Positions 10,836 through 51,431 of a stretch of 64,000 bases of DNA are shown here, one piece after another. The stretch covers positions 99,558 to 163,557 of the forward strand of contig JAFEBQ010000004.1 of NCBI GenBank assembly GCA_018242585.1, given 5' to 3'. Position 1 is the stretch's first letter; the number at the start of each line of letters is the position of its first letter. The stretch comes from Planctomycetota bacterium. Lineage in GTDB: Bacteria; Planctomycetota; Planctomycetia; Pirellulales; PNKZ01. Under the pieces are notes generated by a model. It did not search any database, was not told the origin of the DNA, and saw nothing but the letters and a program-made list of their open reading frames with translations. The position numbers and the translations under genes were made by a program.

Positions 10836-11633
10836 ATGAAAGCGCCCGAGTTGCTCCGTCGCCAGGAATTCGCCATTCGCATCGCGCTCGAGGCGGGCGC
10901 CCTGACGCTGCGGTACTATCGCAACGCCACGCTGGCCGTCGAGCTTAAAGGGGACCAATCGCCGGTGACCGTGGCCGACAAGAACGCCGAGCTGTTTTTG
11001 CGTGAAAAGATTGCCGCCGAGTTCCCCGATGACGCCATCCTGGGCGAAGAGTTCCCCGAGAAGTCGGGCACGTCGGGCTTTCGTTGGATTCTGGACCCGA
11101 TTGACGGGACCAAGAGCTTCATCTCGGGCGTCCCCATCTACGCCAACCTGGTCGGCGTCGAGTACGAACGGCGCAGCGTCGTCGGCGTGATCAACATTCC
11201 AGCCCTCAACGAGTTGGCCTACGCCGCCGTGGGGCATGGGGCCTGGTACGTCCTGGGGGCCGGCGAGCCGGTCGCCGCCCGCGTCTCGGAAAAGAAAACG
11301 CTTGGCGAAGGGTTGTTCGTCACGTCAGAGGTGAAGACGTATTACGACATGGGGCGCGGCGAGGCCTGGATGCGCTTGCAGTCGGCGGCCCGGCTGACGC
11401 GCACCTGGGGCGACGCATACGGCTATCTGCTGGTCGCGACCGGGCGGGCCGAGCTGTGCGTCGATCCCAAGATGAACCTGTGGGATTGCGCCGCGCTGCA
11501 GCCGGTGCTCGAGGAAGCCGGCGGCACGTTCACCGACTGGCAAGGGCGACCGACGATCTATGCGCCCGAGGCGATTGCCACCAATGGATTGGTGCTGGAC
11601 GAGACGTTGAAGCTCATCGCCGCCGCGAAGTAA
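10836..11633 (+). CDS. Inositol monophosphatase-family phosphatase (HisN-like)
   Basis: The 265-residue protein belongs to the Mg-dependent inositol monophosphatase superfamily. Metal-binding motifs are visible: GEEFPE near residue 70, DPIDGTKSF near 89 and WDCAAL near 222. SFISGVPIYANLVGVEY and WGDAYGYLLVATGRAE favour the histidinol-phosphatase (HisN) or 3'-phosphoadenosine branch over true inositol phosphatases. ATG 10836 follows ettA by 34 bases, so the two may be co-transcribed. The exact substrate needs biochemical or phylogenetic evidence. Confidence 0.85.
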   Translation: MKAPELLRRQEFAIRIALEAGALTLRYYRNATLAVELKGDQSPVTVADKNAELFLREKIAAEFPDDAILGEEFPEKSGTSGFRWILDPIDGTKSFISGVPIYANLVGVEYERRSVVGVINIPALNELAYAAVGHGAWYVLGAGEPVAARVSEKKTLGEGLFVTSEVKTYYDMGRGEAWMRLQSAARLTRTWGDAYGYLLVATGRAELCVDPKMNLWDCAALQPVLEEAGGTFTDWQGRPTIYAPEAIATNGLVLDETLKLIAAAK

Positions 11634-11648
11634 CGGTATCGTGGTGAC

Positions 11649-11951
11649 TTGCCTTACCAGCAGCCCGCTCAACTGCGGTACAAGGAGTTGGCCTGGCTTT
11701 CGGATGCTCGCGCGGACGACGCGGTGCATACCGTGCTGAATAATCCCGACCTGCACGCTCCGCTGGGGATTACCGACACCGACTCGACTCGTGTCAGCAA
11801 ACAGATTTGGGATATACTCAAGGAAGGCAAGCGGGGGCCGCTGGAACTGGACAATCCGGGCGTGGTCGATTACGCCCGTCACCATTACGAGTCGCCGGGA
11901 CCAGAACATGAGCAAGCTGACTCCGGAGCAGGCCCGAAAGACGATGCTGAA
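11649..11951 (+). pseudogene. Truncated phage-like fragment (C-terminal piece)
   Basis: This frame begins just after the phosphatase stop with only a TTG (11649) as start and no ribosome site. It encodes a compositionally normal segment with GITDTDSTRVSKQIWDILKE and GPLELDNPGVVDYARHH. It then overlaps the small gene at 11908 in a different frame. The abrupt start suggests the 3' end of a larger gene whose 5' part is lost. The family is not recognised. The same frame stays open to 15038, but see the finding on substitutions: it is probably not coding through the small gene. Confidence 0.45.
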
Positions 11952-12114
11952 TCATCTTTCGAAGACACTCCGTTCGGACCCCCTGTCGAACGCGCCGGGG
12001 CTGACGAACGAGCAGCGACGCGAGCTACGGCGGGAAGCCGAGGCGCGGTGGTTCAAGGTGAACGCCCGGGCGTACCTGAACGGTCGGCCGGATATGCTGA
12101 AGGAACTCAGCTAG
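11908..12114 (+). CDS. Small helical protein, copy 1 of a duplicated module
   Basis: The 68-residue charged, mostly helical protein starts at ATG 11908 and ends at TAG 12112. A second copy lies at 13840-14049. Over the 56 aligned codons (including stop) I count 19 third-position, 9 first-position and 7 second-position differences; 16 codons differ only by a synonymous third base. That pattern shows this frame is the one under protein-level selection, although a longer frame is open through it. Conserved parts are LRSDPLSNAPGLT and VNARAYLN-RPD-LKELS. The function is unknown. Its position in front of phage-type modules suggests a virion- or mobility-related small protein. Confidence 0.7.
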   Translation: MSKLTPEQARKTMLNHLSKTLRSDPLSNAPGLTNEQRRELRREAEARWFKVNARAYLNGRPDMLKELS

Positions 12115-12158
12115 GGCCAGCGTGGCGGCCGTGGAAGTCGCGAACTTGGCATGCCTCG

Positions 12159-13875
12159 ATGGGGTCGTTTATCGATGCGGCCAGCAAGTCGGCCGCCCAC
12201 GCTCCACGACAGGCTGTCGACCTAGGGCAGGTTACTGCCGATCAAGTGCAGGCGATCTCGACCGCCGCCAATGGTGATGTCAGCGGCTTTCATCATGTAC
12301 TTGATGGCTCCGCCTACCGCCACATCTTGGCGGAGCACGGCAGCGAACAGGAAAGGCTTCGGGGCCAGGAACCTATCGGCGACGCGGACTTTGAACGTCT
12401 TCCGGAAATTCTCGCTTCGCCCGATCGCGTTACTGCCGCGGGGGTGAGCAACCTCGGGCAACCGCTCATTCGTTACGAGAAACGGTTCAACGGCACGACA
12501 TACTACGTCGAGGAAGTTCGGCAAGCAAAAAATGAACTTGCCGCCAAGTCGTTATGGAAAAGAAAGACGCCCCCTCCGCCCGTAGACCCAACGTCCGAAA
12601 CGACACGGCATGGTGACCGTGCGACCCATGTTGCAGAGGAAGGCGCCAGTCCAAGTATCGGCCAGCGGCCCGGCGAAATCAAGTCGAACACTGTCGCAGG
12701 CGGATTCGACCTGCGCAAGTTCGCGGCCGATAGCGTGGCGGAAGGGCTAACTCGCAGCCAGGCCAAGGCCAAGCTCCAGCGACTGGGGCAAGGACACTTG
12801 CGCAGCGAGTTGTCGCCGATCATGCGTGAACTGATGGGCGTGCCGGTACCGAAGCAGAACTTCGCTCAACGCATGGCAGCGAAGCAACGGGCCAACTCAG
12901 AGACTCGTAGCGACGCGCAAGAAGAGGCCATTAACGAGGGTTTCGAGGAAACCGATCGGGCGTTACGCGCGGCCGGGGCGACCCTGGACAAGGAAAGCGA
13001 CAGCGGCAGCCGCTACTACACCCTGGCCGGCCGTAAAATCCGCGTGGCCGATCACGAGGCCACCGCAGGCACGCGGCACTGGCTGGACAACCAGGATGAC
13101 AGCGCGGAGATTCGCGTCGATCAACGCAACTGGCAAGCGGCCCTCGACCAGGCGATTCACGGCGAAAACTCGACTACCAATGAGGTGGGGCAGGAAGTCA
13201 AGCAGCCCATTAAGGTAAATCACCTCGACGTTGCTAGGGCAATTATCTACGTCAAACAGAAATACGGAATTGAATTGCACCCCAAGGAGGCGACCGGCGA
13301 CATTCAGGAGGACTTGCAATATCTCGCCAAGAGCTTCGGGGCAATTCCAGTGTTTTTTGAGGACAGTAACGGGCGATTGAAAAGTCCATTCCGGCTTGGA
13401 AAAGCCATCTTTCTGCCACACAACGCCACTGACGCGGCGTTGACTGAGGCAACCATGCACGAAGTGTTTCATGCCACTGGAATCGATCAAGACCCAGCGT
13501 TTGACGATGAATACGTCAAACAGTGGTCTGATTATTATGAAAAACGCCTAGAAGCTGACGAAAAAAATGGAAGCCCAGTAGCGTCAGACATGTTGCAAGC
13601 AATTCGGAGCAACCCCGAACTCCGCCGCAGTGAGGGGATCGCAACGATGGGCGGCAAGTTTTTTCTTGACCCAAAGTTCCAGAAGAAACTGCGCAGCGAC
13701 AAGCCGACGCTGGCCGAACGCCTAGAATATGCAATCAGAAAGATATTCGGCTTATACACGCCGATGTCGGAGGCGATGCGAGTCGCCCTGGATCGACTCA
13801 GAGGCATCAGGGCCGTTGTGCAACAGGAAGCAGGCAAAGGTCAGCCGGGAGAATGGGGAGAGGGATCCTCAGGAA
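12159..13875 (+). CDS. Phage-type polyvalent protein fragment: PBECR-like nuclease plus HExxH domain
   Basis: About 570 residues are read from ATG 12159 until the frame meets the second small-gene copy. The first domain (roughly residues 30-130; FHHVLDGSAYRHILAEHGS, then DFERLPEILASPDRV and YYVEEVRQAKNELA) resembles PBECR, the phage barnase-EndoU-colicin-RelE-like nuclease domain. A middle linker is rich in charged residues. Near residue 430, TMHEVFHATG contains HEVFH, an HExxH zinc-peptidase signature. Such domains occur in large polyvalent proteins that phages and plasmids inject with their DNA. The 3' limit is uncertain, because the frame continues into DNA that codes in another frame. It could be a decaying prophage gene. 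Confidence 0.55.
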
Positions 13876-14049
13876 GTGATTCTGGATCATCTGGATCAGA
13901 CACTCCGCTCGGACCCGCTGTCAAACGCGCCGGGACTGACCAGCGAACAACGCTGGGAACTGCGCAAGGAAGCGTCGCGGCGGTGGGCCAAGGTCAACGC
14001 GCGGGCGTACCTGAACGACCGGCCGGACCTGCTGAAGGAACTCAGCTAG
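13840..14049 (+). CDS. Small helical protein, copy 2 of a duplicated module
   Basis: This paralogue of the gene at 11908 aligns along its whole length, including an identical last 16 bases up to the TAG at 14047. The codon at the position of copy 1's ATG is GTC here (13840). Initiation would have to use GTG 13876 or an upstream start, so the copy may be non-functional. Preserved residues are TLRSDPLSNAPGLT and VNARAYLNDRPDLLKELS. Most differences from copy 1 are synonymous in this frame. The longer overlapping frame reads a low-complexity Gly/Ser/Thr-rich peptide here that is not conserved between copies. Confidence 0.6.
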   Translation, partial: VSRENGERDPQEVILDHLDQTLRSDPLSNAPGLTSEQRWELRKEASRRWAKVNARAYLNDRPDLLKELS

Positions 14050-14057
14050 GACCGCCG

Positions 14058-15038
14058 GTTGTCATTAAGGGGGACGAACTGGGAGACCCGTCCGACCCAG
14101 AGAAGTTTCGCGAGACGGTTTATGAATATGCCATGTCCCACTTTCGTGGGCATCCATTCATCAATCTCGCAACCAAAACTCCGGTCTTTTTTTCTCGCAA
14201 CGGCCTTCGGAAAATCAAAAGTTTCAGCGGCGACATTCGCCGTATGCAGCTATTGGCCAAAGCTCCCGAGCTAATTGAGCGTGCAGAGTACGTGGACAGC
14301 GCCCCTGCTGACGAGCCGGGATACGATCGTTTTCACTATTTTCGAGTGCCGGTGGAGATTGCTGGCCATCGCGATGTGGCCCACCTGACGTTTGCCCAAG
14401 ACAAAAACGGGCATTGGTACTACTGGCAACTGCTCGAAAGCGACCAGGCGGAAGAAAAAGAGAAGGCCCGCCATCCAAACCAGGTGCTTGGCGACAAGTT
14501 GCCGAGCGGTCCTGAAACAAGCGGGCCTTCCCAAGAAAAAAGTATCGGCTCGGGCGATCAGGAAATCAAGCCAAAAGCCAGCAGTAGCGAGGCCGCCGAC
14601 GGCGAAACCAATTTGGGGCCGCGGCTGAAAGAAGCGGGCCAGCAGGTCGGCTCGCTGGCACGGCATTTCCTCACGTCGCGCGGCGATTTGCCGCAAGAGG
14701 CGTTCATCCATAAGGAACAAATGGCCCAGTTCGAGACGGCCCAGGATATTAGCACCGGGTTCGCGCTGCGCGATTTCAAGCAAGCGATGAAGCGAGAGTA
14801 CGGCGGCGAGCTCAAGGCCGGCGACCCGCGATTATTGGCGTTGAACACGGCCCTGCACGGTGGCCCGGTCGGGAACATTCCCGTGGCGATGCGCGGCGTG
14901 GTGCAGCAGATGATCCCGAGGCGATTTTCGTTTCCCCGCGCGCCGATTCGGACTATAACGGGAGCCGACCCGCGCGCCGCTACGCCACGCGCGGCTTCCC
15001 TTTCCCATCGCACCCACCCCCAGGCACGTACACCATGA
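14058..15038 (+). pseudogene. LPD3-like domain plus phage-type C-terminal fragment
   Basis: The frame resumes recognisable protein right after the small-gene stop with VVIKGDELG, then ETVYEYAMSHFRGHPF, FFSRNGLRKIKSFSG and DVAHLTFAQDKNGHWYYWQ. This order resembles LPD3, a large-polyvalent-protein-associated domain of phage and plasmid proteins. A linker and a second segment (TNLGPRLKEAGQQVGSLARH, then LPQEAFIHKEQMAQF) follow. No ATG, GTG or TTG lies at the domain start, so the 5' end is missing or joined by an unknown mechanism. The last 30 or so codons before TGA 15036 are probably untranslated leader of the next gene. Confidence 0.5.
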
Positions 15039-16438
15039 GCGACGTTCGCAATTTCGGCGCGGCCGGCGACGGCCAGAACGACGACACCGAGGCCGTGGAA
15101 CACACCATTGCCCAAGGGGAAGGCCCGGTCGAATTCCCACCGGGGACGTATCTGCTGCGACGGACGGTGCGGGTCGATCTGGCCAAGACTGGCCGGCTGG
15201 CCATCACCGGCGCGGCGGGGACGCCCAAGATCATCATGGCCGGCGAAGGCCCGGCGTTTCACATCGTCGGCACCCACGACAAGAACGCCGACCCAGCAGG
15301 TTTCTCGCACGATGTTTGGCGCAAGGAGCGGATGCCGACGGTCTCGAACTTGGAGATCGAAGGGACGACCGAGAAGGCCGGCGGCATTCTGATCGACGGC
15401 GTGATGCAACCGACGTTTACCGGAGTGCTGATCCGCAAGGTGAACCACGCCATCCACGTCCGCCGCCGCTGTCGCAACGTGCTGATCTCGCATTGCCACC
15501 TTTACAATAATCACGGCATCGGCGTGTACTTCGATGATCTGAATCTGCACCAGGCGATCATCATCGGCTCGCACATCAGTTACTGCCTGCAAGGGGGCAT
15601 CGTCATCCGCGGCTCCGAGATTCGCAACTTGCACATCACCGGCAATGACATCGAATACAACTTCGACGTGAACGCTCCGACCAGCGCCGATCTGTTGATC
15701 GACTGCCGCAAGGCCGGCAGCAGCGTCCGCGAAGTGACGATCGTCAGCAATACAATCCAGGCCAAGTACAGCCCCGGCGGCGCGAACGTGCGGTTGCTGG
15801 GTCTGAACCGGGACAACAATCGCAAGGTCGGCATCATTGCCCTGGCCAACAACGTGCTGGGGAGCGAAGAGGTCAATCTGCACATCGCCGATTGCCGCGG
15901 CATTACCGTGACGGGCAACACGCTCTACAGCGGCCACCGCGGCAACATGTTGATCGAAGGTTCGCAGAACATCACCGTCACCGGCAACAGCTTCGACCAC
16001 AACAGCGACTATGGCGACAAGGAACTGTGTACCGGCGTGAAGATCAAGGAAAGTCAGGATGTCTTGTTCGGCAATAACATCGTGCAAGACGCGCTGGCCG
16101 GCAAGAACACCGTTCTGGACGCGGTCGACGCCCAGCGCGAAGCGCTGGTCCAGTTGACCGATTGCGACCGGGCCACGGTCTCGGGCTGTCAGATTCTCGA
16201 CGGGCAGCCCTACGCCTTGCTCGTGGAAAAGAGCAACCGAGTGAATGTCTCGGGGAGCACCATCGTCGAGACCCGCACCGACAAGATGATGCGTGCGGCC
16301 GTTTGCTTCCGCGGCGCTGGCCGGGCGAACTTTGTCTCGGGCAATACGCTGGGGCGCGGGCTGGACGAGGCCCTGGTCGCCGACGCCGAGTCGAACGTCA
16401 AGCGCGGCGACAATCTGATCGATGAGAGCAAGACGTAA
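15035..16438 (+). CDS. Right-handed beta-helix (pectate-lyase-like) protein
   Basis: The 467-residue protein begins with the classic opening of pectate-lyase-superfamily and tail-spike proteins: VRNFGAAGDGQNDDTEAVEH, followed by FPPGTYLLRRTV. After that come many short parallel-helix coils with repeating N-x-I-x-G-N patterns such as ITVTGNTLYS and ITVTGNSFDHN. No signal peptide is visible. Placed directly after phage-like modules it may be a tail-spike-type polysaccharide-binding or depolymerising protein. Free-standing planctomycete beta-helix proteins are also common. The ATG overlaps the TGA of the preceding frame (ATGA), although that frame may not be translated there. Confidence 0.75.
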   Translation: MSDVRNFGAAGDGQNDDTEAVEHTIAQGEGPVEFPPGTYLLRRTVRVDLAKTGRLAITGAAGTPKIIMAGEGPAFHIVGTHDKNADPAGFSHDVWRKERMPTVSNLEIEGTTEKAGGILIDGVMQPTFTGVLIRKVNHAIHVRRRCRNVLISHCHLYNNHGIGVYFDDLNLHQAIIIGSHISYCLQGGIVIRGSEIRNLHITGNDIEYNFDVNAPTSADLLIDCRKAGSSVREVTIVSNTIQAKYSPGGANVRLLGLNRDNNRKVGIIALANNVLGSEEVNLHIADCRGITVTGNTLYSGHRGNMLIEGSQNITVTGNSFDHNSDYGDKELCTGVKIKESQDVLFGNNIVQDALAGKNTVLDAVDAQREALVQLTDCDRATVSGCQILDGQPYALLVEKSNRVNVSGSTIVETRTDKMMRAAVCFRGAGRANFVSGNTLGRGLDEALVADAESNVKRGDNLIDESKT

Positions 16439-16495
16439 ATGTGACGTCTGTTATAATTGAGCGCTTTGCATGATTCTTCCGGGAGCAAGCGCTCG

Positions 16496-16852
16496 ATGCG
16501 GTGTGAAGAAGGCTATCTGTGTGACGTTTGCGGCGGCGACGTCGAGGAGATGGTCGACAGCGACCTGTACCTGCGGTTCGTGATCGGCATGGCCGACCCC
16601 GAGACGTTGCACACCTCGCGCGAGCGTCACATCCGCTGCAACCCAGCACTGGCGCAATTCATTGTCGACGAGCGGTTCGAGCCGATCACCTGTGAAGGAC
16701 CGTTCGACAAGCGGCAACTCGACCCCCAGTTCGTCCGCGAGCGCGAAAGCCTGGTCACCCGCGGCTGGCAACGGCTGGTCTCGCTAGCCGGCCAGGACGT
16801 GAGCATCGTCGAGTACCCGCTGCCGGAAGCGCGAGCGCTTTATCAGCGCTGA
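16496..16852 (+). CDS. Conserved small CxxC protein of unknown function
   Basis: The 118-residue protein is read from ATG 16496, with GGGAG about 11 bases upstream. It opens with MRCEEGYLCDVCGGDVEEM, where Cys3 and the CxxC pair may bind zinc. It continues with SDLYLRFVIG, a segment with His and Cys (RERHIRCNPALAQFI) and an acidic C-terminus. The remaining Cys/His residues (HIRC, ITCEGPF) could complete a metal site. I do not recognise a named family. It is likely transcribed alone, as both neighbours are unrelated. Confidence 0.65.
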   Translation: MRCEEGYLCDVCGGDVEEMVDSDLYLRFVIGMADPETLHTSRERHIRCNPALAQFIVDERFEPITCEGPFDKRQLDPQFVRERESLVTRGWQRLVSLAGQDVSIVEYPLPEARALYQR

Positions 16853-31793: not shown

Positions 31794-33569
31794 TTACCTT
31801 TGCACGGAACTGCCTGACGACCTGTACGGGCTGCCGTGCTGTTCCTTGACCTTGACCACACACACCGTCATCAGGATCGCCGCCAGCAAGACCGCCACAC
31901 ATCCCGCTACGATCCTGGCTTTTGCCCGAAGTCCATCCAGTCTGCCTGGCGTTCGGACTTGCTCCTCGTAGTACCGCACGAGCGTCGTCCACAGGGGTGG
32001 AATGCCTGGCGTAAACGTGATCGCGACCCTTGGCGACAGCGCCGCCACTTCTTCCGGCTTCAGCAGCTTGCGGGCCTGCTGCTGCCAGCCACTGTTCCAG
32101 TTTTCGGAATGGCTGGTGCTCCCTGGAGTGGCTCCCGGCACTTGGACTGATTTCCCACTGCCGCTTCCGCCGCTATCCACAACGATGGTTTCCTCACCCA
32201 ACCGGGCACTCACATATTCCGCTGTCTGCGGATCGTTGACTCCGAAGAAAACCTGGCTGGTGTTGCTCAGCAATGTCTGATCCTGATCTTCAGGAAAACA
32301 CTTCTTGAGCTGGCCGAGCGACTGGTAATAAAACTGAAGTCGCACGCCATAACCTCTGAACTTGTCCACGGCATCATCGAGGCAGTCGAGATGGCCGAGG
32401 CTTGCTGCTTCGTCCAACACGAAATGCACCTTGTTCGCTTCCTGCAAACCACCCCGCACCACCGACCGCAGCAATCCACTGATCCACATTCGCAACAGCG
32501 GCGATTGCGCCCGCATGTGTTCGGGCGGCAGCACCAGGTACACGGTCAACTTTCCCTTGCGTAGTTCCGCCGGTTCAAAGCTGCTGTCTTTCGTGTTCTC
32601 CACAATCGGCAGCGTGTCGAGGAAACGCAGGAAGCGGTTTGTCGTTGTGAGCGTCGAACCAAGCTCTCTGTCCTTGAAATAGGTGAGTTGATTCCCCATG
32701 CGGGCCAACATCCCGTTCCACACCTCGGGCGATCCGCGCATCAGCTCGATGACGGCTTCCATCTTGGCCGAGTTGGAAAGCAGAGTCCGCACGGTTTGCA
32801 GCGACCGGTCGCCCGGCTCGCCGAAGTGAACCACCACCGCGAGCATCGACGCGATCCAGGCTTCCGCCGAGTCCACGAAATGTGGGTCCTTCTCCTGCCC
32901 GGTCCTTATGACGAATGCTTCGGCCAGGGCCCGGCAATCATCAATCGCCAGCGGCGATGCCTTGTCGATGGAATCAAGGACGTTGAACCGGTCAGGTGTC
33001 TGCGTTACCACTTTGAACGGATCGAGAAGAACGATCTTGTGCCCGAACACATCGCGCCTGTGTTTCGCTGTCAGGTTGGCCAATTCGCCCTTGAAATCCA
33101 CGACAACGCAGGAATCGGGGCACCGTTGCAGGAAGGGAATCACACAAGACACACCCTTGCCAACACCGGTCGGGGCAAAAATCGCCGTATGCACGGCGTT
33201 CGACAAGCTCACCATTACCTGCTCAGATCGACCGAACACGGCCAGGAAGTCCTTGCACGCGTTCGTGTCATCAATCCGCTTATCGAACAGCTTCCAAAGC
33301 GCCGGCAAGAGCTTCTTCGGCCCAGCGGAGAGCCGTCCGAGAATCAGTCCGCTCGTGCCGCCCAGCATCCCGGCCCGACTCAGGTCGCTCGCGTCGGCCC
33401 AACGGGCCGATCCCAGCGTGGTCAGGCGGGCATAGCCTTTTTTCGCATGGGCGATGCACAGAGCGACGACGGCCGCGACCATGAACCACGGCGACATCGA
33501 CCCCAACATGATGATGCAGCAGACCAGCAGCAGCACGGCCAGTACCAGCATCGTTCGGCACGTTTTCAT
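31794..33569 (-). CDS. VirD4/TraG-type conjugative coupling protein (T4CP)
   Basis: T4CPs are inner-membrane ATPases that bring the relaxase-DNA complex to a type IV secretion channel. The 591-residue protein is read from ATG 33569, with GGAG upstream. Two N-terminal membrane segments (TMLVLAVLLLVCCIIMLGSM and SPWFMVAAVVALCIAHA) are followed by the ATPase domain with Walker A FAPTGVGKGVSC near residue 133 and Walker B VHFVLDEAASLG near 385. A third hydrophobic segment near the C-terminus (IVAGCVAVLLAAILMTVCVV) is unusual for the family. Its start overlaps the upstream gene's stop (ATGA). No VirB genes are in view, so the channel is presumably borrowed. Confidence 0.9.
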   Translation of the reverse strand: MKTCRTMLVLAVLLLVCCIIMLGSMSPWFMVAAVVALCIAHAKKGYARLTTLGSARWADASDLSRAGMLGGTSGLILGRLSAGPKKLLPALWKLFDKRIDDTNACKDFLAVFGRSEQVMVSLSNAVHTAIFAPTGVGKGVSCVIPFLQRCPDSCVVVDFKGELANLTAKHRRDVFGHKIVLLDPFKVVTQTPDRFNVLDSIDKASPLAIDDCRALAEAFVIRTGQEKDPHFVDSAEAWIASMLAVVVHFGEPGDRSLQTVRTLLSNSAKMEAVIELMRGSPEVWNGMLARMGNQLTYFKDRELGSTLTTTNRFLRFLDTLPIVENTKDSSFEPAELRKGKLTVYLVLPPEHMRAQSPLLRMWISGLLRSVVRGGLQEANKVHFVLDEAASLGHLDCLDDAVDKFRGYGVRLQFYYQSLGQLKKCFPEDQDQTLLSNTSQVFFGVNDPQTAEYVSARLGEETIVVDSGGSGSGKSVQVPGATPGSTSHSENWNSGWQQQARKLLKPEEVAALSPRVAITFTPGIPPLWTTLVRYYEEQVRTPGRLDGLRAKARIVAGCVAVLLAAILMTVCVVKVKEQHGSPYRSSGSSVQR

Positions 33570-33991
33570 GATGCACTCTCCTCCGAGGTGTTCTGAGCGT
33601 TCACGGGAACTGCTTGCTTGGTTTCCTGCAAATGCCCCAGGAGACAACCAGTGAGCACGGGGATAATCATGGCCAGGAGGAAGCATCCATCGCGGATAGT
33701 GCGGTACGGTTCATCCGCCGCCCGTACCTTTTTCACTTGCGCCTCACTCGGAACGAGCTTTCCGTTCGCACGCTTCGCGAATGGGTTCCCCTCAAACGTC
33801 GAGACTGTCGGCTGCTCGCCTACTGGCGGCGGTGGCCCCGGAGGTCCGGCGTCCACGGGAGGAATGTTGGCCGCAATGCGTGCCGACTCCTCTTCGGTAA
33901 GCATCATGCTCCCGGCGATCTTGCTCGCGATCATCGCGAGCAGCATGACCGAGGCTGCCACGAGCACGATCTTGTTCTTGCGGTTGAACAT
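33566..33991 (-). CDS. Bitopic membrane protein upstream of the coupling protein
   Basis: The 141-residue protein has an N-terminal membrane segment (IVLVAASVMLLAMIASKIAG), a Pro-rich stretch (PPVDAGPPGPPPPVGEQP), and a second hydrophobic segment near residue 105 (GCFLLAMIIPVLTGCLLG). Overlap with the T4CP start suggests the two proteins are made together and may form a membrane complex. No family is recognised. Confidence 0.65.
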   Translation of the reverse strand: MFNRKNKIVLVAASVMLLAMIASKIAGSMMLTEEESARIAANIPPVDAGPPGPPPPVGEQPTVSTFEGNPFAKRANGKLVPSEAQVKKVRAADEPYRTIRDGCFLLAMIIPVLTGCLLGHLQETKQAVPVNAQNTSEESAS

Positions 33992-37042: not shown

Positions 37043-37600
37043 TTATCGACTTCGTGTCGGGATCGTAGGTGGTTCTGATTCAATGGAACGAGCAAACAGG
37101 AACGCGGGAGCATTCTTTGTGAGCCATGCCTTGATTGCCTCATGCGACTCAAACTCCGCGACTTCAATGCTGTCGATGGTCGGCCCCGTGTCGCCTACCT
37201 TCCTGATTTCGTCTTCGCTCATTTCGCGGATAAACAAGACCCGGTGACGCTGCAAGCCGGCGTGCGTCAGATTGATCGCTCCTTCGTTCAAAGGTTTTGC
37301 GAGATTGGAGCCCCTTATAAGAACCACATACACCGCTGCGGAATTGAAGGTGAGCAGCAAACCTTCTGATGGATCGTATTTCCACGGTCCCATCTGTGAG
37401 TAGGGAAACCACATGCTGGTCCCGTTCCTGAATCGAAACTCCAGCGCCGCAGATTGGTCGCGAAGTCCGCGTAAGTAGCCAAACGCTCCGCACGTGGCTT
37501 CCCCCTCATCATCCGCTTCCTTCGACTGCAAGATGCCACTCAGGCCCGATGCGGCCCCACCGCGTTTAAGACGATCCTGATGTGTTGTGTCATCCGGCAT
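37043..37600 (-). CDS. Hypothetical protein coupled to the relaxase
   Basis: The 185-residue protein is read from ATG 37600, inside the last codons of the relaxase gene (overlap of 11 bases), so it is translated from the same message. The central part has alternating strands: ALEFRFRNGTSMWFPYSQMG, GLLLTFNSAAVYVVLIRGSN and HRVLFIREM. The protein ends in a charged tail. No family is recognised. Convergent with the integrase, its stop is seven bases from the integrase stop. Confidence 0.7.
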   Translation of the reverse strand: MPDDTTHQDRLKRGGAASGLSGILQSKEADDEGEATCGAFGYLRGLRDQSAALEFRFRNGTSMWFPYSQMGPWKYDPSEGLLLTFNSAAVYVVLIRGSNLAKPLNEGAINLTHAGLQRHRVLFIREMSEDEIRKVGDTGPTIDSIEVAEFESHEAIKAWLTKNAPAFLFARSIESEPPTIPTRSR

Positions 37601-40259
37601 GGTCCAATCCTCGATCCGGGGTGATGGCATCTTTGCCGTTACCGAAAACCGAAAGCCCGCGTGCAAACGCAAGCTGTTTCAAACGATCCTTCAATCCGGG
37701 CTGCTTTGCAGCCTCGGAAAGTTCCGTTGCCGACATCGGCTCGTCAGGCCGTCCTACTGCCTTCAGCAAGCTGATCCTGTCATCCGTGAAAACGACGGCC
37801 TGCTCTTTGCCGCGTGTCAGCGCCACGTAAGCTGTTCGCTGCGTCGTCGCCGGCAGCGACTCGCTGGCGATGGCCACGAATACCTTGTTGACCGTATCGC
37901 CCTGGCTGGCATGGCTGGTCGTGCAGTAGCCGTGTGTCAGATGGCCGAATTCCCGGTCAATGACCCAGCCATGATCCACGACAACATCGCCTCGCCTGGT
38001 GAATCCCTGGACGTTGAACAACGACCCGTTGCTCAGGCGATGCTTTCCATCCTTGGTTTTGCCGCCCGCTGTGACGCGAATTCGGTCGCCGACCGCCAAT
38101 GTAAGTTGAGTTGGACGATACACCTCGAACCGGTCTGCAAGCCCGGTCGGCAATCGAATGCCGTCGCCCACAACAAGCCTATCGCCTTTCGTGAACCCCT
38201 TCGCATTCTGCTGAAATTGCACCAGGTATCCCGGCTCATATTCGGTGGAGTCGGTTTTCTGTGAATCTGTCAGGTGAGTCGGAACCCAGGCATCAACAAC
38301 CTGCTCTTTACTGAGCCTGCCTCGTGCCTTCAGGCCATCACGGATTGACGCCGTAACGCGATCACCTTCGGCGTGCGTTGGCGACACAACGAGAGCGGTT
38401 TTGAAATCACCGGTTGCCTTTTTCTCAGACACCGCCGCGATGTAGGTTTCGGCGAGTTGCTTGTACCGGTCCTCATCCGACACCTGTTTGATCCACCCGA
38501 GCTGGTCGAGCAACCCGAACGCTTTATCGGTGTGACCTTCGCTCAACTGCTGCGCCACCTTTCGGTAATCGGCAGCTTCCTGCCTGAGAATCTGCGTTAC
38601 CGCCGCCACCTTCAACCCTGCCGTTTCTTCCAACAGCTTGAGCGGTTCGCCAGCAGTGACGCTGCGATGCTGCCTTCGGTCGCCCACGAGTACAACGCGG
38701 GCATTGGCCATTTCGGCGACCTCAAACAACCTGAGCATTTCTCTTGTGCCAAGCTGGCTTGCTTCATCCACGAGCAGCACGCCGCCACGTACCGCTTCCT
38801 GCATTTTCTTGTCCTTCAGAAACATGGCTACCGTGTCAGCATCTTTGAAGCCTGCGTCGTTTCGCAGCACTTCACGGCTGGCTTTCACAGATTGAGCGAT
38901 GGCAACCACGGGTTTGCCCGCCTCAACAATCGCTTCGCCGAGTTCCTGTTCCAGCGTTGTTTTTCCGGTTCCGGCCACGCCGCGAATAATCATCACCCGG
39001 TCGCGGGAGCCAATCACATGGGCGACGGCTGCCTTCTGTTCGTCGTTGAGCCACTCACGGGAAACCGGGCGCTTCGGATCGCCAAGAGGACGGCAGCGGC
39101 CGCGTCCATCACGAGCGAACGCAATGAGCTGCGATTCCATATCCCGCATCAACCGCGTGGTTGCCATCGTGCGGCCCTCGAATTCGCTGCGTATGAGCGG
39201 CCGGTTCGCTGTTTCGCGCGCCACATCCTCGACGGTCACACTGCCGAGGCCGCGTTTCAACGCTTCGGTCACGAGCTTGCGTTCTGGAACCACTGCCTCG
39301 CGCACATAACTGTGCTCGATGGCGTGATCGACCGCCGCCGCTTCCTGATGGAATTGCCGGGCATAGTTTGTCGCACGGCAGGACGTGCCTTCCAGGCCAT
39401 GCCGCTCCTCGACTGTCATCCGGCTTGCCCAGGCATCACGAAGTTCTTCGATGGTCAATGCCTTGCTCTTCTTCTCGCGGGTTTCGGCCCCCAGTTCGGC
39501 TTTGCGATCCGGGTCGGTTATCCCTTTCTCGGCGGCAATCTTCTCAATCAGTGCTGTCCGGCGCGAGAAGCGTTGGAGCAAATCCTTGGGAATCCCGGCG
39601 ATTTCAAAATCGTCACGCTTACGGGCCACACCGAAGCCTATATCCTGGAGTTTGTTGGCCAGTCGCACACGGAACGCGGCCTGGAAATACGGTGCATCCT
39701 GCTTCAATTCGCGGAACTGACCTGCCTTCCAACGCTCTTCTTCCTGGTCCCACGTAGTGTTGAAGGTGAATACGTGGGCGTGCAACTGGGGGTCGGGCAC
39801 GCCATCGACGGGTCGTGACGTGGTATGGATGAATTCCGCCCACACCATGTTGCCGGTCGTGCGGTTCGCATCCTGGCCTTTGCGGCGCACGCGGGTTTTC
39901 ATCTCAGTTTCGACCTCCCGCATCGTCTCATCGACGCTATTGCGGAAGGCATCCAGAATGCCCTGATCACCGCTCATCGCATAGAGCAGGGACACTGACT
40001 TAGGAACCGAGAATGTGAAATCGTAACCAACCGTCCGTTCGGTGCGCGACCGAACCGTCAGTTGCATTCCCGTCCGTGGGTCGAGATTGTCGCAGAGACG
40101 CTCGAAGGATTGCTTGTCAACGGTGCCTTCAAGGCCGAGCCGGGAAGCTCCTCTGCCGCCCCAGGAGCCGATGATCTCTTGGCCCTCGCTGTAATAATCA
40201 GCCGTCGCGTAGTAGCGCTTGGCTCCCTGGGCACTGTTCTGTTGCGTGATTCGCATCAT
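37590..40259 (-). CDS. MobF-family conjugative relaxase-helicase (TrwC/TraI-like)
   Basis: The relaxase nicks the transfer origin, stays bound to the 5' end, and unwinds the strand. The 889-residue protein begins with MRITQQNSAQGAKRYYATAD, whose YY pairs are the candidate catalytic tyrosines. YDFTFSVPKSVSLLYAMSGD is the TrwC signature near residue 75, and DPQLHAHVFTFN near 165 gives the metal-binding histidines. The helicase half has Walker A IRGVAGTGKTTLEQELG near 420, and GGVLLVDEASQLG near 500. HGYCTTSHASQGDTVNKVF near 800 is a late helicase motif. At 889 residues it is closer to TrwC than to the much longer F TraI. The start is 40259 or the adjacent ATG at 40256. Confidence 0.92.
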   Translation of the reverse strand: MMRITQQNSAQGAKRYYATADYYSEGQEIIGSWGGRGASRLGLEGTVDKQSFERLCDNLDPRTGMQLTVRSRTERTVGYDFTFSVPKSVSLLYAMSGDQGILDAFRNSVDETMREVETEMKTRVRRKGQDANRTTGNMVWAEFIHTTSRPVDGVPDPQLHAHVFTFNTTWDQEEERWKAGQFRELKQDAPYFQAAFRVRLANKLQDIGFGVARKRDDFEIAGIPKDLLQRFSRRTALIEKIAAEKGITDPDRKAELGAETREKKSKALTIEELRDAWASRMTVEERHGLEGTSCRATNYARQFHQEAAAVDHAIEHSYVREAVVPERKLVTEALKRGLGSVTVEDVARETANRPLIRSEFEGRTMATTRLMRDMESQLIAFARDGRGRCRPLGDPKRPVSREWLNDEQKAAVAHVIGSRDRVMIIRGVAGTGKTTLEQELGEAIVEAGKPVVAIAQSVKASREVLRNDAGFKDADTVAMFLKDKKMQEAVRGGVLLVDEASQLGTREMLRLFEVAEMANARVVLVGDRRQHRSVTAGEPLKLLEETAGLKVAAVTQILRQEAADYRKVAQQLSEGHTDKAFGLLDQLGWIKQVSDEDRYKQLAETYIAAVSEKKATGDFKTALVVSPTHAEGDRVTASIRDGLKARGRLSKEQVVDAWVPTHLTDSQKTDSTEYEPGYLVQFQQNAKGFTKGDRLVVGDGIRLPTGLADRFEVYRPTQLTLAVGDRIRVTAGGKTKDGKHRLSNGSLFNVQGFTRRGDVVVDHGWVIDREFGHLTHGYCTTSHASQGDTVNKVFVAIASESLPATTQRTAYVALTRGKEQAVVFTDDRISLLKAVGRPDEPMSATELSEAAKQPGLKDRLKQLAFARGLSVFGNGKDAITPDRGLDHAG

Positions 40260-45590: not shown

Positions 45591-46286
45591 ATGCCGAAGA
45601 AGCCGCCTTCGTGGGATCAGCCCACTTTATTTCCTCTCGATGGAAACGGTTCACCCGAACCGGCAAACGAAGTAAAATCAACCTCACCAGTCAAAGGAGA
45701 TGACCATGCACTACAAGACCATCGTCCTAACACTCCTCCAGCAACGGACGGAGATGCACGAACGCCTGCGGAAGGAACGCAGGTTGCTGACAACACTGGA
45801 GCGGTACGCCCACGAGTTGAAGCAGAGTCACGAAGCCTTCATCGACCTGCTGTCGGCGATACCGGGCCACGACCCGAGCCAGATCCGAAGCACGGCAATG
45901 GAGATGGCGGTCGAGCAATTGCAGGAACGTTTGCAGAGCGAGTCACCGCAGGACGACAGGGAACTGCCTACGCTCGATCAGGCAATGGCGTTTCTCGTTG
46001 GTCCCATGTCGAGAGACTGAAGCACTCCCGAGGACAGCGAAGCCTTTTTGATTCGCTATCGGACGACCAATCTCCCGACGTGCCGACCCCGCCTGGGGCA
46101 TCAGATGACGGCACGCTAATCAGCCCGCCGGGCCGTGCAAGCGGAATTCCGGTTCCCCCTGAAGGTCTCCCCCAAAATTCCGCTGGCACGGTCGCGACGC
46201 GAGCGGAGCCCCGGACTGCGGCTGATTCCTCCGCGAGCCGTCAGGCCCCAGTTGCGGGGCCGGTAACACAAGGAGGAGACCGCGAC
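45591..46286 (+). other. In-frame upstream extension of the methylase-helicase frame
   Basis: The methylase frame stays open upstream to ATG 45591. The first 20 codons look protein-like (KKPPSWDQPTLFPLDGNG). After that the frame reads low-complexity sequence while a well-initiated gene (45706-46020) occupies another frame. Either the methylase truly starts at 45591 and the two genes overlap completely for 315 bases, or this is a chance extension and the GTG at 46287 is the start. Confidence 0.45.
45706..46020 (+). CDS. Small coiled-coil protein overlapping the methylase upstream frame
   Basis: The 104-residue protein starts at ATG 45706, with AAAGGAG six bases upstream; the ATG at 45700 is too close to that site. 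It is strongly helical and charged: TIVLTLLQQRTEMHERLRKE, RRLLTTLERYAHELKQSHEA and AMEMAVEQLQERLQ, likely a coiled coil. It lies completely inside an open part of the methylase frame, in a different frame. The good initiation site and amino-acid composition support it as a real gene. Its function is unknown. Confidence 0.7.
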   Translation: MHYKTIVLTLLQQRTEMHERLRKERRLLTTLERYAHELKQSHEAFIDLLSAIPGHDPSQIRSTAMEMAVEQLQERLQSESPQDDRELPTLDQAMAFLVGPMSRD

Positions 46287-49200
46287 GTGCAAGGAACACA
46301 ACTCAGCTTTCAGTTAGACCTACCGCCACCGATTCGATTCACCGACCCGCCGCCACGACCGGCAGCAAGGGATCTGTTCTCAATTCCGTCGTCGCCGACA
46401 CCAGCGAACATTTCAAGCGGAGAGAAATCGAAGGCGCGCGACATCATCGCCGCCATCCGCACGCTAGAGGCCATCGAGCAGGAACAGCGACGCGCTACCG
46501 ATGCCGAACGGCAGGTACTCGCCCGTTTCGGCGGCTTCGGTGCCGTGGCTCTCTCAATCTTTCCCGATCCCGTGACTGGCAAACACAAGGACACTGGCTG
46601 GCAAGCTCTCGGCGAGGAACTGCAATCACTGCTCACGCCCCAGGAATATGACAGTGCCAAACGCACCACGTTCAACGCCTTCTACACATCACCCACCGTC
46701 ATCGACGGCATCCATGATGCTATCGGTCGCCTGGGCGTGCCGGAGGGCGCGACGATTCTTGAGCCAGGCTGCGGCACCGGCAATTTCATGAGCCAGGGGA
46801 AACCGGGCAATCGCTTTATCGGTGTCGAACTCGATTCTATCTCCGGTCGCATCGCCCGCGCCCTCCATCCCGAACACGACATCCGCATCGAAAGTTTCCG
46901 CGACACAACGCTGCCGGAAAACCGCATCGACGCCGTAATCGGCAACGTGCCGTTTGCCGATCTGAAGCTCGATTACCACGGGCAGAAGTATTCGCTGCAT
47001 GATTATTTCTTCGCCAAATCCATCGACACACTGAAACCCGGTGGCGTGCTGGCGCTGGTCACTTCCCACTTCACGCTCGACAAGCAGAACGCCGCGATCC
47101 GCGAGTACCTGGCGTCGAAAGCCGACTTCGTGGGAGCGATCCGGTTGCCGTCGGATGCGTTCAAGCGGGAAGGAACCGCCGTGGTGACCGACATCGTATT
47201 TCTTCGGAAGCGTGACCGGGGCGAACCTGCCCACCACGTCGATCCCGACTGGCTGGGCATCGCACCGCTGACGATCGATGGCGCAGAGGTTCCGGTAAAC
47301 CGCTACTTCCTGAACCATCCCGAAATGGTGCTGGGCAACTGGTCCCGCAAGGACACGCTCTATGGAGGCGAAGGGTTCAGCGTCATTGGTAATGGCGACC
47401 TGCAAGGAAAACTCAGGCAAGCGATTGACCGGCTTCCAAAATTCGAGCCGCTGCAATCAACGCAAGCCGAAACTGAAGCCGCTCCGGCATTCGTACCGCC
47501 GCCACCGGAACGCCACATCAGCGAAGGCAGCTTCTTCCTGGGTGACGACAAGGTCATTTATCAATCGCAAGGCGGACAAGGCGTTCCCGTTGTCTATGGC
47601 GGCACGACGCTCAAAGCTGATGGCACGATGACCGGCAAACGCATGGCCGCTCTGGTCGAACTGCGTGACCGCGCTCGCCGCGTGCTGCAATCGCAGAACG
47701 AAGGATGGCCGCAATCGCACCGTGACGATGCCCGCCGCGAACTCAATCGCACTTATGACCGTTTCGTTGCTGCCTACGGCCCGATCAACAAGACCACCTT
47801 CGGCGAAACAGCCGATGGCAGCGTCATCCGCCGGATGCCCAACCTTGTAAAATTCAAGGAAGACCCGGACGCGATGCTGGTCATGTCGCTCGAAGATTAC
47901 GACGAAGTGACCGGCAAGGCGACCAAAGCCGCCATCATGTCGAAGGACGTGGTAGGCAAGAACCCGCCCGTTACGCAAGTACGCTCCGCCGAGGAAGGCT
48001 TGCTGGTATCGCTCAATCAGCGCGGCACGGTGGATCTCGCCTATATCGCATCCCTGTACGGTAAGCCGGAGCAGCAGATTATCACCGAACTGGGCGACCT
48101 GATCTTTCAGGAACCGCAATCGCAGGAATGGCAGACCGCCGACGCCTACCTGTCCGGTAACGTGCGGGCAAAACTCGCCGCCGCCGAAGCGGCAGGCTCG
48201 CAATACCAACGCAACGTCAACGCCTTGCGGCAGGTGCAGCCCGAGGACGTGCTACCGGGCGACATCGACGCCGGGCTTGGGGCACCGTGGATTCCGGCAA
48301 GCGATATTCAGGCATTTGCCGCCGACCTGTTCCATGTTGAGCCGTCTTCCGTGCCGGTGGCCCACCTGAAGAAAGATGCCGTCTGGAGCCTGGACGCCGG
48401 ATACGCCGCCAAGGCATCCGTCGCCGCAACATCGGAATTCGGAACGTCGCGAGCCAACGGCACCTGGCTGCTCGAACTGGCCCTCAACATGAAGTCGCCG
48501 ACCATTTACGACACCATCCAGAATGGCGACTGTGAGGAGAGGGTGGTCAACCAGGAAGAGACGATGGCAGCCCGCGAGAAGCAGAAGCTCATTAAGGAGC
48601 GTTTCCGTTCGTGGGTGTTCACCGACCCGGAACGCACCGAACGCCTCGTGCGGATTTACAACGACACCTATAACAATCTGCGTCCCCGGCTGTTCGACGG
48701 CTCGCATCTCGATTTCCAGGGGATGAATCAGGCATTGACGCTCCGCCCGCATCAGAAGGATGCCGTCTGGCGGGGCATGAGCAGCGGCAACACCTTGCTG
48801 GCCCACGTCGTCGGTGCCGGCAAGACATTCACGATGGCCGCAACCGGCATGAAGATGAAACAGGCCGGGCTTGTCAAAAAGCCGATGTACGTCGTCCCCA
48901 ATCACCTGCTGGAGCAATTCGCCCGCGAATTCATGCAGTTGTATCCGAATGCGAAGCTGCTGGTTGCCGCCAAGGAAGACCTGACCCGCGACCGCCGCAA
49001 GTTCCTCACCGCCAAGATTGCCAGCGGCGAATGGGATGGCATCGTCGTCACGCATTCATCCTTCGAGCGCATCGGCATGTCACGGGATTATCAGGAGAAG
49101 TTCCTGCTGGAGCAGATCGCGGAATACGACGCATTGCTCCGCGAACACGCTGCCGACAAGGGCGCCAACCGCAACCTCATCAAGCAGATCGAAAAGCAGA

Positions 49201-51431
49201 AGGCGGCCCGCGCTGAGCGGCTCAAGAACCTTTTGGCCGAGGACAAGAAGGATGACGGGCTGGTATTCGATGAACTGGGGGTCGATCACGTCTTCATCGA
49301 CGAGGCCCATTATTTCAAGAACCTGGAAACCCCGACCAAGATGGAACGTGTCGCCGGTATCCAGACTGGAGGCAGCGAACGCGCCTTCGACGTGTACATG
49401 AAGGCCCGCTTCCTCGACGAGCAGCACGCTGGCCACGGCGTCACATTTGCCACAGGAACGCCGATCAGCAACACGATGGTGGAGATGTACACCATGCAGC
49501 GATTCCTCGACCCAGAGGGCCTCAGAAGCCGGGGAATCGAGCATTTCGACGCCTGGGCAGCCACCTTCGGCGAAGTCGTGGACACGATGGAGATTTCCCC
49601 GGATGGTGCCGGGCTTCGCCCCCGCAGCCGGTTTGCCCGGTTCACAAACCTGCCGGAGCTTCAGCAGATGTTCCGGGCATTCTCCGATGTGCAGACCGCC
49701 GAGATGCTCAACCTGCCGCGTCCGCGACTGCGAGGCGACAAGCCCATCGTGGTTGCCTGCCCCATGTCCGATGAACAGTGCGAACTGCAAAGGGAGTTGG
49801 TGGAACGCTACGAACGGCTGCGGTCGGAGAAGATCGACCCGCGTATTGATAACGCACTGGCAATTACAACCGACGGCCGCAAGCTCGCCACCGATGCCCG
49901 GATGCTTTCGGCCACGGCCCCTGATTTTCCGGGATCGAAGGTCAACCGTCTTGTGGAAAACGTTGTGGAAATCTGGAGGAAGAGCACGCCAACACGCGGA
50001 ACGCAAATGATTTTTGCCGACATGGGCGTGAATCCGACAGCGTGGGGTTACTCGCCGTATGACGAGATCATCGAGAAGCTGATCGCCCAGGGCATTCCCC
50101 GCGAGCAGATTGCCACCATCGGCGAAGCCGAATCCGACGCCAAGAAGCAGGCATTGTTCGAGAAGGTTCGCCAAGGTTCAGTGCGGGTGCTGATCGGCAG
50201 TACGCAAAAGATGGGCACGGGCACCAACGTCCAGAAACGGTTGGTCGCCCTGCATCACCTCGATGCACCGTGGAAACCGGCGGAAGTCGAACAGCGTGAC
50301 GGCCGCATTCTCCGCCAGGGCAATGAAAACAAGGAAGTGGCGATTTACCGTTACGTTACCGAGGGTTCGTTCGATGCCTATATGTGGCAGGCCCTCGAAA
50401 CCAAGGCCCGGTTCATTGGCCAGGTCATCACCGGTGACAATGCCGCCCGACGCGCCGAGGACATCGGCGGACAGGAACTCTCCTATGCCGAGGTCAAAGC
50501 AATCGCATCCGGAAACCCGGCAGTGCTCACACTGGCCGAAGCTGATGCCGAGTTGCAGCGGCTCAACCTCCTGAAAAAGAACCATCTCGACGAGCAATAC
50601 GTCGCCCGTCGAAACGTGAAGAGTTTGCCGGCTACCATCACGAGCCTCACCGAACGGCTGTCAAATCTGACCACCGACGAGGCGACCGTCACGGGCCATG
50701 CCCAGGACCGCATCGTCATTGGCAAGCAACCCTGGAACCGCGAAGACGCACCTGCTGCTCTTGCGGGCAAGCTGGAACTGCTGCCGACCAACGTCCGCGA
50801 GAATACCCGCGTTCCGCTTGGCACCTTCCGGGGCCTGCAATTCGGTTTGGTCCTGCATCCGCAGTTTCCACCCGACGTATATCTCGAAGGTGCGATCATT
50901 CGGCATGACTCGCTTTCGCGGGAGCATCAGGGACCACGCGCCGTGCTCAATGCCCTGGAACGGATTGCCACCGGCTACGCGGCTGAGACCGTCCGCGTCC
51001 GGCAGGATCTGTCGATTGCCGAATCGCAGTTACGCGACTATCAAGCCCGGCTGGGAAAAGCATTTCCGCACGATGCGTACCTGTTGCAACTGACTGACTT
51101 ACGGGACCAGCTCAAGGCCGGGCTATCGGCTACCGCACACAATTCCCGTGATCAGTCCGGTCCGAGCGTTTCTGAACTGGCCGACCAGATCAAATCGCTG
51201 AAATCTGCGAACACCATTGAGGCAACTCCGCAGCGCGTGCAACGCAAGCACGTATCTGCTGAGGAGCCAATCACCGCCCGCATCCGCCGTCGGCAGGAAG
51301 AGGTCGCGTCGGCGGACGAATCCAGCCCAAATGAAGACGGATCGCCGGAGCCGAAGACAATGACATTCCAGGAACGCATCCTGAGGGAACGCCAGCAGCG
51401 CACCGATGGTGAATCGCAAAGCCCATCCTGA
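46287..51431 (+). CDS. N12-class adenine DNA methylase fused to an SNF2-like helicase
   Basis: About 1714 residues are read from GTG 46287, which follows AGGAGGAG by eight bases; the open frame extends up to 45591. The N-terminal third is an N6-adenine methylase: TILEPGCGTGNF near residue 158 binds S-adenosylmethionine, and GNVPFADL near 220 replaces the usual NPPY motif. The C-terminal half is a helicase/translocase: HVVGAGKTFTMA near 843, VFIDEAHYFKNLE near 1004, GTQMIFADMG and TQKMGTGTNVQKRL, then PAEVEQRDGRILRQGN near 1333. A coiled-coil tail follows. Such proteins occur on ICEs and plasmids, probably protecting incoming DNA or aiding transfer. Confidence 0.88.
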   Translation: MQGTQLSFQLDLPPPIRFTDPPPRPAARDLFSIPSSPTPANISSGEKSKARDIIAAIRTLEAIEQEQRRATDAERQVLARFGGFGAVALSIFPDPVTGKHKDTGWQALGEELQSLLTPQEYDSAKRTTFNAFYTSPTVIDGIHDAIGRLGVPEGATILEPGCGTGNFMSQGKPGNRFIGVELDSISGRIARALHPEHDIRIESFRDTTLPENRIDAVIGNVPFADLKLDYHGQKYSLHDYFFAKSIDTLKPGGVLALVTSHFTLDKQNAAIREYLASKADFVGAIRLPSDAFKREGTAVVTDIVFLRKRDRGEPAHHVDPDWLGIAPLTIDGAEVPVNRYFLNHPEMVLGNWSRKDTLYGGEGFSVIGNGDLQGKLRQAIDRLPKFEPLQSTQAETEAAPAFVPPPPERHISEGSFFLGDDKVIYQSQGGQGVPVVYGGTTLKADGTMTGKRMAALVELRDRARRVLQSQNEGWPQSHRDDARRELNRTYDRFVAAYGPINKTTFGETADGSVIRRMPNLVKFKEDPDAMLVMSLEDYDEVTGKATKAAIMSKDVVGKNPPVTQVRSAEEGLLVSLNQRGTVDLAYIASLYGKPEQQIITELGDLIFQEPQSQEWQTADAYLSGNVRAKLAAAEAAGSQYQRNVNALRQVQPEDVLPGDIDAGLGAPWIPASDIQAFAADLFHVEPSSVPVAHLKKDAVWSLDAGYAAKASVAATSEFGTSRANGTWLLELALNMKSPTIYDTIQNGDCEERVVNQEETMAAREKQKLIKERFRSWVFTDPERTERLVRIYNDTYNNLRPRLFDGSHLDFQGMNQALTLRPHQKDAVWRGMSSGNTLLAHVVGAGKTFTMAATGMKMKQAGLVKKPMYVVPNHLLEQFAREFMQLYPNAKLLVAAKEDLTRDRRKFLTAKIASGEWDGIVVTHSSFERIGMSRDYQEKFLLEQIAEYDALLREHAADKGANRNLIKQIEKQKAARAERLKNLLAEDKKDDGLVFDELGVDHVFIDEAHYFKNLETPTKMERVAGIQTGGSERAFDVYMKARFLDEQHAGHGVTFATGTPISNTMVEMYTMQRFLDPEGLRSRGIEHFDAWAATFGEVVDTMEISPDGAGLRPRSRFARFTNLPELQQMFRAFSDVQTAEMLNLPRPRLRGDKPIVVACPMSDEQCELQRELVERYERLRSEKIDPRIDNALAITTDGRKLATDARMLSATAPDFPGSKVNRLVENVVEIWRKSTPTRGTQMIFADMGVNPTAWGYSPYDEIIEKLIAQGIPREQIATIGEAESDAKKQALFEKVRQGSVRVLIGSTQKMGTGTNVQKRLVALHHLDAPWKPAEVEQRDGRILRQGNENKEVAIYRYVTEGSFDAYMWQALETKARFIGQVITGDNAARRAEDIGGQELSYAEVKAIASGNPAVLTLAEADAELQRLNLLKKNHLDEQYVARRNVKSLPATITSLTERLSNLTTDEATVTGHAQDRIVIGKQPWNREDAPAALAGKLELLPTNVRENTRVPLGTFRGLQFGLVLHPQFPPDVYLEGAIIRHDSLSREHQGPRAVLNALERIATGYAAETVRVRQDLSIAESQLRDYQARLGKAFPHDAYLLQLTDLRDQLKAGLSATAHNSRDQSGPSVSELADQIKSLKSANTIEATPQRVQRKHVSAEEPITARIRRRQEEVASADESSPNEDGSPEPKTMTFQERILRERQQRTDGESQSPS

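Follow-up and report, generated by a model that had tools for sequence, protein, structure and literature searches.

A phage-type polyvalent reading frame in a planctomycete with two paralogous small ORFs nested in another frame

In polymorphic toxin cassettes, a conserved segment precedes variable toxin modules. The long open reading frame (ORF) that we describe here from a planctomycete resembles them in that different modules (PBECR3 and LPD3) come after a conserved repeat, as recombination-driven swapping would give. It differs from them in that selection on its conserved segment acted in a different frame from the one encoding the modules, and neither a secretion signal nor an immunity gene was identified. 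PBECR3 and LPD3 are domain families of polyvalent proteins, in which zincin-like peptidases are the commonest domain (PMC5512222). Like the phage-type polyvalent proteins (Iyer et al. 2017, PMC5512222), the long ORF has a modular make-up, with PBECR3 and LPD3 in one frame, an HEXXH motif between them, and relatives in phage contigs. Unlike them, it is a fragment of ~1100 codons without a start or phage neighbors, and two of its joints are at the same time small-gene copies lying in a different frame. Neither "overlapping" nor "frameshift" appears in the main text of that work. The locus also resembles overlapping genes born by overprinting (PMC2268670, PMC4683798), with signs of constraint, tentative for the long frame, in two frames of one DNA stretch and one frame, here the small one, that looks older by codon usage. 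It differs from these in that the long frame seems to be newer and to serve as an interdomain linker, and in that the arrangement occurs twice, in paralogous copies.

The window, i.e., the whole stretch of 64,000 nucleotides that was analyzed, belongs to a genome of 5.57 Mb in 56 contigs. Its ORF at 11649-15038 (+) comprises 1129 codons, the first being a TTG directly 3′ of the preceding gene, and no credible start codon was found at the left end. According to the codon-usage track, its coding character fades at ~14930, yet the frame stays open to 15038. The features of the locus are as follows.

11649..14930, +, long polyvalent-protein reading frame (codon-usage track, Pfam domains, open frame)
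11649..11880, +, N-terminal module, coding in the long frame (codon-usage track)
11908..12114, +, small ORF copy 1, starting with ATG, 68 aa, +1 relative to the long frame and inside the first linker (dN/dS and synonymous-codon test against copy 2; codon usage)
11967..12119, +, long-frame linker 1, T-P-F-G-P ... T-Q-L-G-P (motif listing)
12249..12566, +, PBECR3 nuclease-like domain, long frame (Pfam PF18812, E 1.8e-18; relatives in other genomes and viral contigs)
13458..13472, +, HEVFH motif, candidate zincin-like metallopeptidase module (motif seen in the long frame)
13876..14049, +, small ORF copy 2, best start GTG 13876, 57 aa, inside the second linker (dN/dS and synonymous-codon test against copy 1; codon usage; start codons)
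13902..14054, +, long-frame linker 2, T-P-L-G-P ... T-Q-L-G-P (motif listing)
14055..14423, +, LPD3 domain, long frame (Pfam PF18798, E 5.4e-19; alignments to L038/L055 and L066)
14607..14930, +, C-terminal orphan module, beginning T-N-L-G-P, 3′ end truncated (codon usage)
15035..16438, +, right-handed beta-helix gene, second part of a probable 4.8-kb island (ORF list; Pfam; tail-spike PHROGs, E 4e-11; family homologues)

In the Pfam matches, PBECR3 occupies residues 201-306 and LPD3 residues 817-925 of the long-frame protein; they share one polypeptide frame, and both lie far above the Pfam cutoffs. The HEVFH motif sits between them. A zincin-like peptidase, which is not obligatory in polyvalent proteins, stays a proposal there, because the HEVFH module matched no Pfam profile and the AF2 model of the presumed peptidase module failed (pLDDT 39, unusable). 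Homology searches with the N-terminal and C-terminal modules returned no relatives. In each of two viral contigs, L065 and L066, a single uninterrupted ORF contains both PBECR3 and LPD3; that of L065 has 2305 aa and extends beyond both ends of the locus, and that of L066 has 2738 aa and extends beyond one end. Relatives of PBECR3, found in other genomes as well as in viral contigs, belong to ORFs as long as 2869 aa, and LPD3 also matches PHROG 18222, whose profile has 2118 positions; no match was confirmed in an LPD3 profile scan of the viral contigs. Together, these matches indicate that the long frame is not empty and that a fusion of the two domains is normal for the family.

Two segments within this frame proved to be paralogous, as a preliminary description of the DNA had proposed. 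The repeat, which we call D1 (11943-12118 and 13878-14053), spans 176 nt with 79% identity and no gaps. Read in the +1 frame relative to the long one, both copies end on a common TAG, and the similarity ceases 4 nt past it. The bounds originally given to the segments (11908-12114 and 13840-14049) needed correction, as DNA homology proper begins ~12 codons inside copy 1, at 11943, and 13840 is a GTC rather than a start codon. The frame of copy 2 is open from 13729 without an ATG, which leaves the GTG at 13876 as the best start, and no obvious ribosome-binding site was seen for it.

Over the ungapped block, the differences between the copies fall on codon positions 1/2/3 of the small frame in the numbers 9/8/20, close to the 9/7/19 counted previously over 56 codons; 16 codons differ only synonymously, exactly as had been reported, and 13 change the amino acid. 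Read in the long frame, these differences fall mainly on first positions (20/9/8) and mostly alter the amino acid, again in agreement with the earlier account, with only 2 synonymous-only codons against 23 nonsynonymous ones. The NG86 dN/dS between the copies was 0.26 in the small frame, 1.64 in the long frame, and 1.55 in the third. Random reassignment of the 37 substitutions among columns with the same letter yielded, on average, 6.2 synonymous-only codons in the small frame (P[>=16] = 5e-5; P = 5e-4 for the best of the three frames), and a Fisher test of synonymous versus nonsynonymous changes gave p = 2e-4. While the copies diverged, purifying selection in the two segments thus acted on the nested small frame. 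The preference of a codon-usage score trained on the other genes of the window changes from the long frame to the small one at two places only, ~11874-12100 and 13824-14048. Outside these segments the long frame is mostly clearly coding by this score, and inside the joints its codon usage is poor (-4 to -13 nats).

The long frame is nevertheless open through both copies. Given the small protein and local codon usage, the probability of this was 0.11 and 0.18 for the two copies, compared with 0.001 and 0.007 for the third frame, although these odds come from only two sequences and are weakened because the case was picked for being open. When divergence was simulated so as to preserve the small protein, a stop arose in the long frame in 57-93% of the runs, and among stop-free runs 0.06-3.5% matched the observed long-frame BLOSUM similarity (P = 0.0006-0.035; two sequences). 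The long-frame identity between the copies was not significant in the simulation (P 0.06-0.18; two sequences). The openness and the BLOSUM similarity together may point to constraint on both frames.

The peptide that the long frame would encode in the linkers is rich in G, A, R, E, and P. Both blocks contain the motif T-x-[LF]-G-P close to their start and once more at their end, and it recurs ahead of the C-terminal module; as it was spotted after the fact, its shuffle statistic can serve only as a rough guide. The two ends of linker 2 carry an imperfect direct repeat of 14 bp (12/14), which was equalled in 2/60 shuffles. LPD3 homology begins ~2 codons past the stop of small ORF 2, and the nearest in-frame starts upstream of it are GTG 13983, inside small ORF 2, and GTG 13818, before it. 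GTG 13983 and GTG 12048 occupy equivalent positions in the two copies, and ATG 12159 could start the PBECR3 part. No relative spanning either joint was found in the genomes of the order, phylum, and class, or among phages, plasmids, and viral contigs.

The small protein was modeled as two helices (pLDDT 76), and a fold search with this predicted structure gave no significant match. Relatives were likewise found neither by tblastn in the genomes of the order, phylum, and class, phages, and plasmids, nor by pattern scans of viral and genome contigs, nor with a two-sequence profile over 358 class genomes. All matches were at chance level, given the number of genomes searched. Among those examined, some align within the N-terminal portion of long ORFs, and two of these ORFs may, at a guess, encode amidases. 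This echoes a weak match of copy 1 to an NCBIfam amidase (E 0.018), which was judged coincidental, and the pattern VNARAYLN matched in two viral contigs where the protein is unrelated. Across the genomes, phages, plasmids, and viral contigs searched, the small gene is carried by two sequences only, i.e., both copies here.

The locus is flanked by an inositol monophosphatase gene and the beta-helix gene, and does not lie in a phage or conjugative element. The inositol monophosphatase gene, 5′ of the locus, is complete, conserved to approximately residue 260 of 265 in relatives, and the ATG of the beta-helix gene overlaps the TGA of the long ORF (ATGA). In a relative, G062, the inositol monophosphatase gene is followed directly by a homologue of window positions 16457-16852, which indicates that ~4.8 kb was either gained here or lost in G062. 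From this comparison, positions 11630-16480 probably constitute an island of ~4.8 kb. The long ORF is best explained as a displaced fragment of a phage gene, rather than an intact polyvalent member in place, and is probably a stranded remnant in this genome. An exact 12-bp direct repeat, CCCGAGGCGATT, is present at 11565-11576 (the 3′ end of the inositol monophosphatase gene) and at 14915-14926 (where the long frame loses its coding character); it is possibly a trace of insertion, or else due to chance. Homologues of the beta-helix gene with 35-54% identity occur in most genomes of the family, at other genomic sites where checked.

We favor the reading that a polyvalent gene was transplanted and that its linkers are the two small-gene copies read out of frame, both frames having once been constrained, and we give this reading about an even chance of being right. 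Starting from the presence of two domains in one frame, the paralogy, the selection on the small frame, and the openness of the long frame, we infer the remaining steps as follows. The small frame would be the older one, swept up during module shuffling in a donor phage, where recombination would have placed effector modules on either side of the small-gene copies. Because the composition of the small gene leaves the long frame stop-free at times, the modules on both sides would have been able to fuse through it, and the out-of-frame peptide would have been turned into a linker. If both frames were constrained for some time, the arrangement would be one of nested dual coding, present or past. 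By analogy with polyvalent proteins, the product may enter the host with the phage DNA, where its own candidate peptidase module perhaps cuts it to release the nuclease. This reading has to contend with the small number of small-gene sequences (two), the lack of joint-spanning relatives, the poor codon usage of the long frame in the joints, the missing ATG of copy 2, and a long-frame identity not above expectation.

The same missing ATG, together with the lack of an obvious ribosome-binding site in copy 2 and of relatives of the small protein in all searches, would fit a different history, in which once-separate small genes were swallowed in a module fusion and are now silent, so that the selection signal predates the fusion and only the long frame is meaningful. 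Such fossil linkers would also agree with the truncated look of the ORF at either end, which suggests that the entire fragment may be in decay; we consider this history possible but doubtful, as both small frames are intact and have good codon usage. That codon usage and the small-frame selection could instead be taken to mean that the locus consists of separately translated genes (small gene 1, PBECR3, small gene 2, and LPD3) and that the continuous long frame is accidental, with ATG 12159 as a possible start for the PBECR3 part and the equivalent GTGs 12048 and 13983, one in each copy. The preliminary description had gone in this direction, regarding the long protein as a chain of modules, which our results support, and the giant protein as simply false, which is probably wrong. 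Outside the small gene, LPD3 lacks a start codon of its own, every module lies in one frame that is mostly coding outside the segments and remains open in both copies at the odds given above, and PBECR3 and LPD3 belong to single large proteins elsewhere; we therefore regard separate translation as unlikely. Finally, the predicted two-helix structure, such as an in-frame domain might have, could be a sign that the small peptide was formerly in frame and that compensating frameshifts or assembly errors have arisen at both ends of each copy. This is very improbable, because matching indels would be needed at both ends of two independently diverged copies, and the copies share the TAG end, with similarity stopping 4 nt later.

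The transplanted gene with out-of-frame linkers can be carried one step further, to a mobile small gene that forms the joint of a modular phage effector and encodes a putative protein of its own as well as the out-of-frame linker. One repeat would then provide homology for module swapping, a linker, and a putative separate small product, but we hold this version to be decidedly unlikely. If both frames are used, modular phage effectors could gain linkers by out-of-frame reading of an existing small gene, without new sequence, and the repeat would double as a recombination handle. The nested arrangement would also mark a blind spot, since those gene callers that do not allow long overlaps output just one of the two proteins. 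Even if only a fossil, the locus would still document that a fusion took place as polyvalent proteins evolved.

Just 3′ of PBECR3, positions 12568-12646 are 84% identical to a 76-nt piece on another contig of the same genome (G000, C1:1914-1989). This second copy corresponds to a P-rich TSETTRHGDRA tail encoded by the window piece and is perhaps what remains of a second gene of this kind. Elsewhere, the window carries conjugative-element genes, with a T4SS coupling protein at 31794-33686 (-), a TrwC relaxase with helicase at 37590-40259 (-), and, at 45591-51431 (+), a 1946-aa ORF with ResIII/SNF2 helicase domains.
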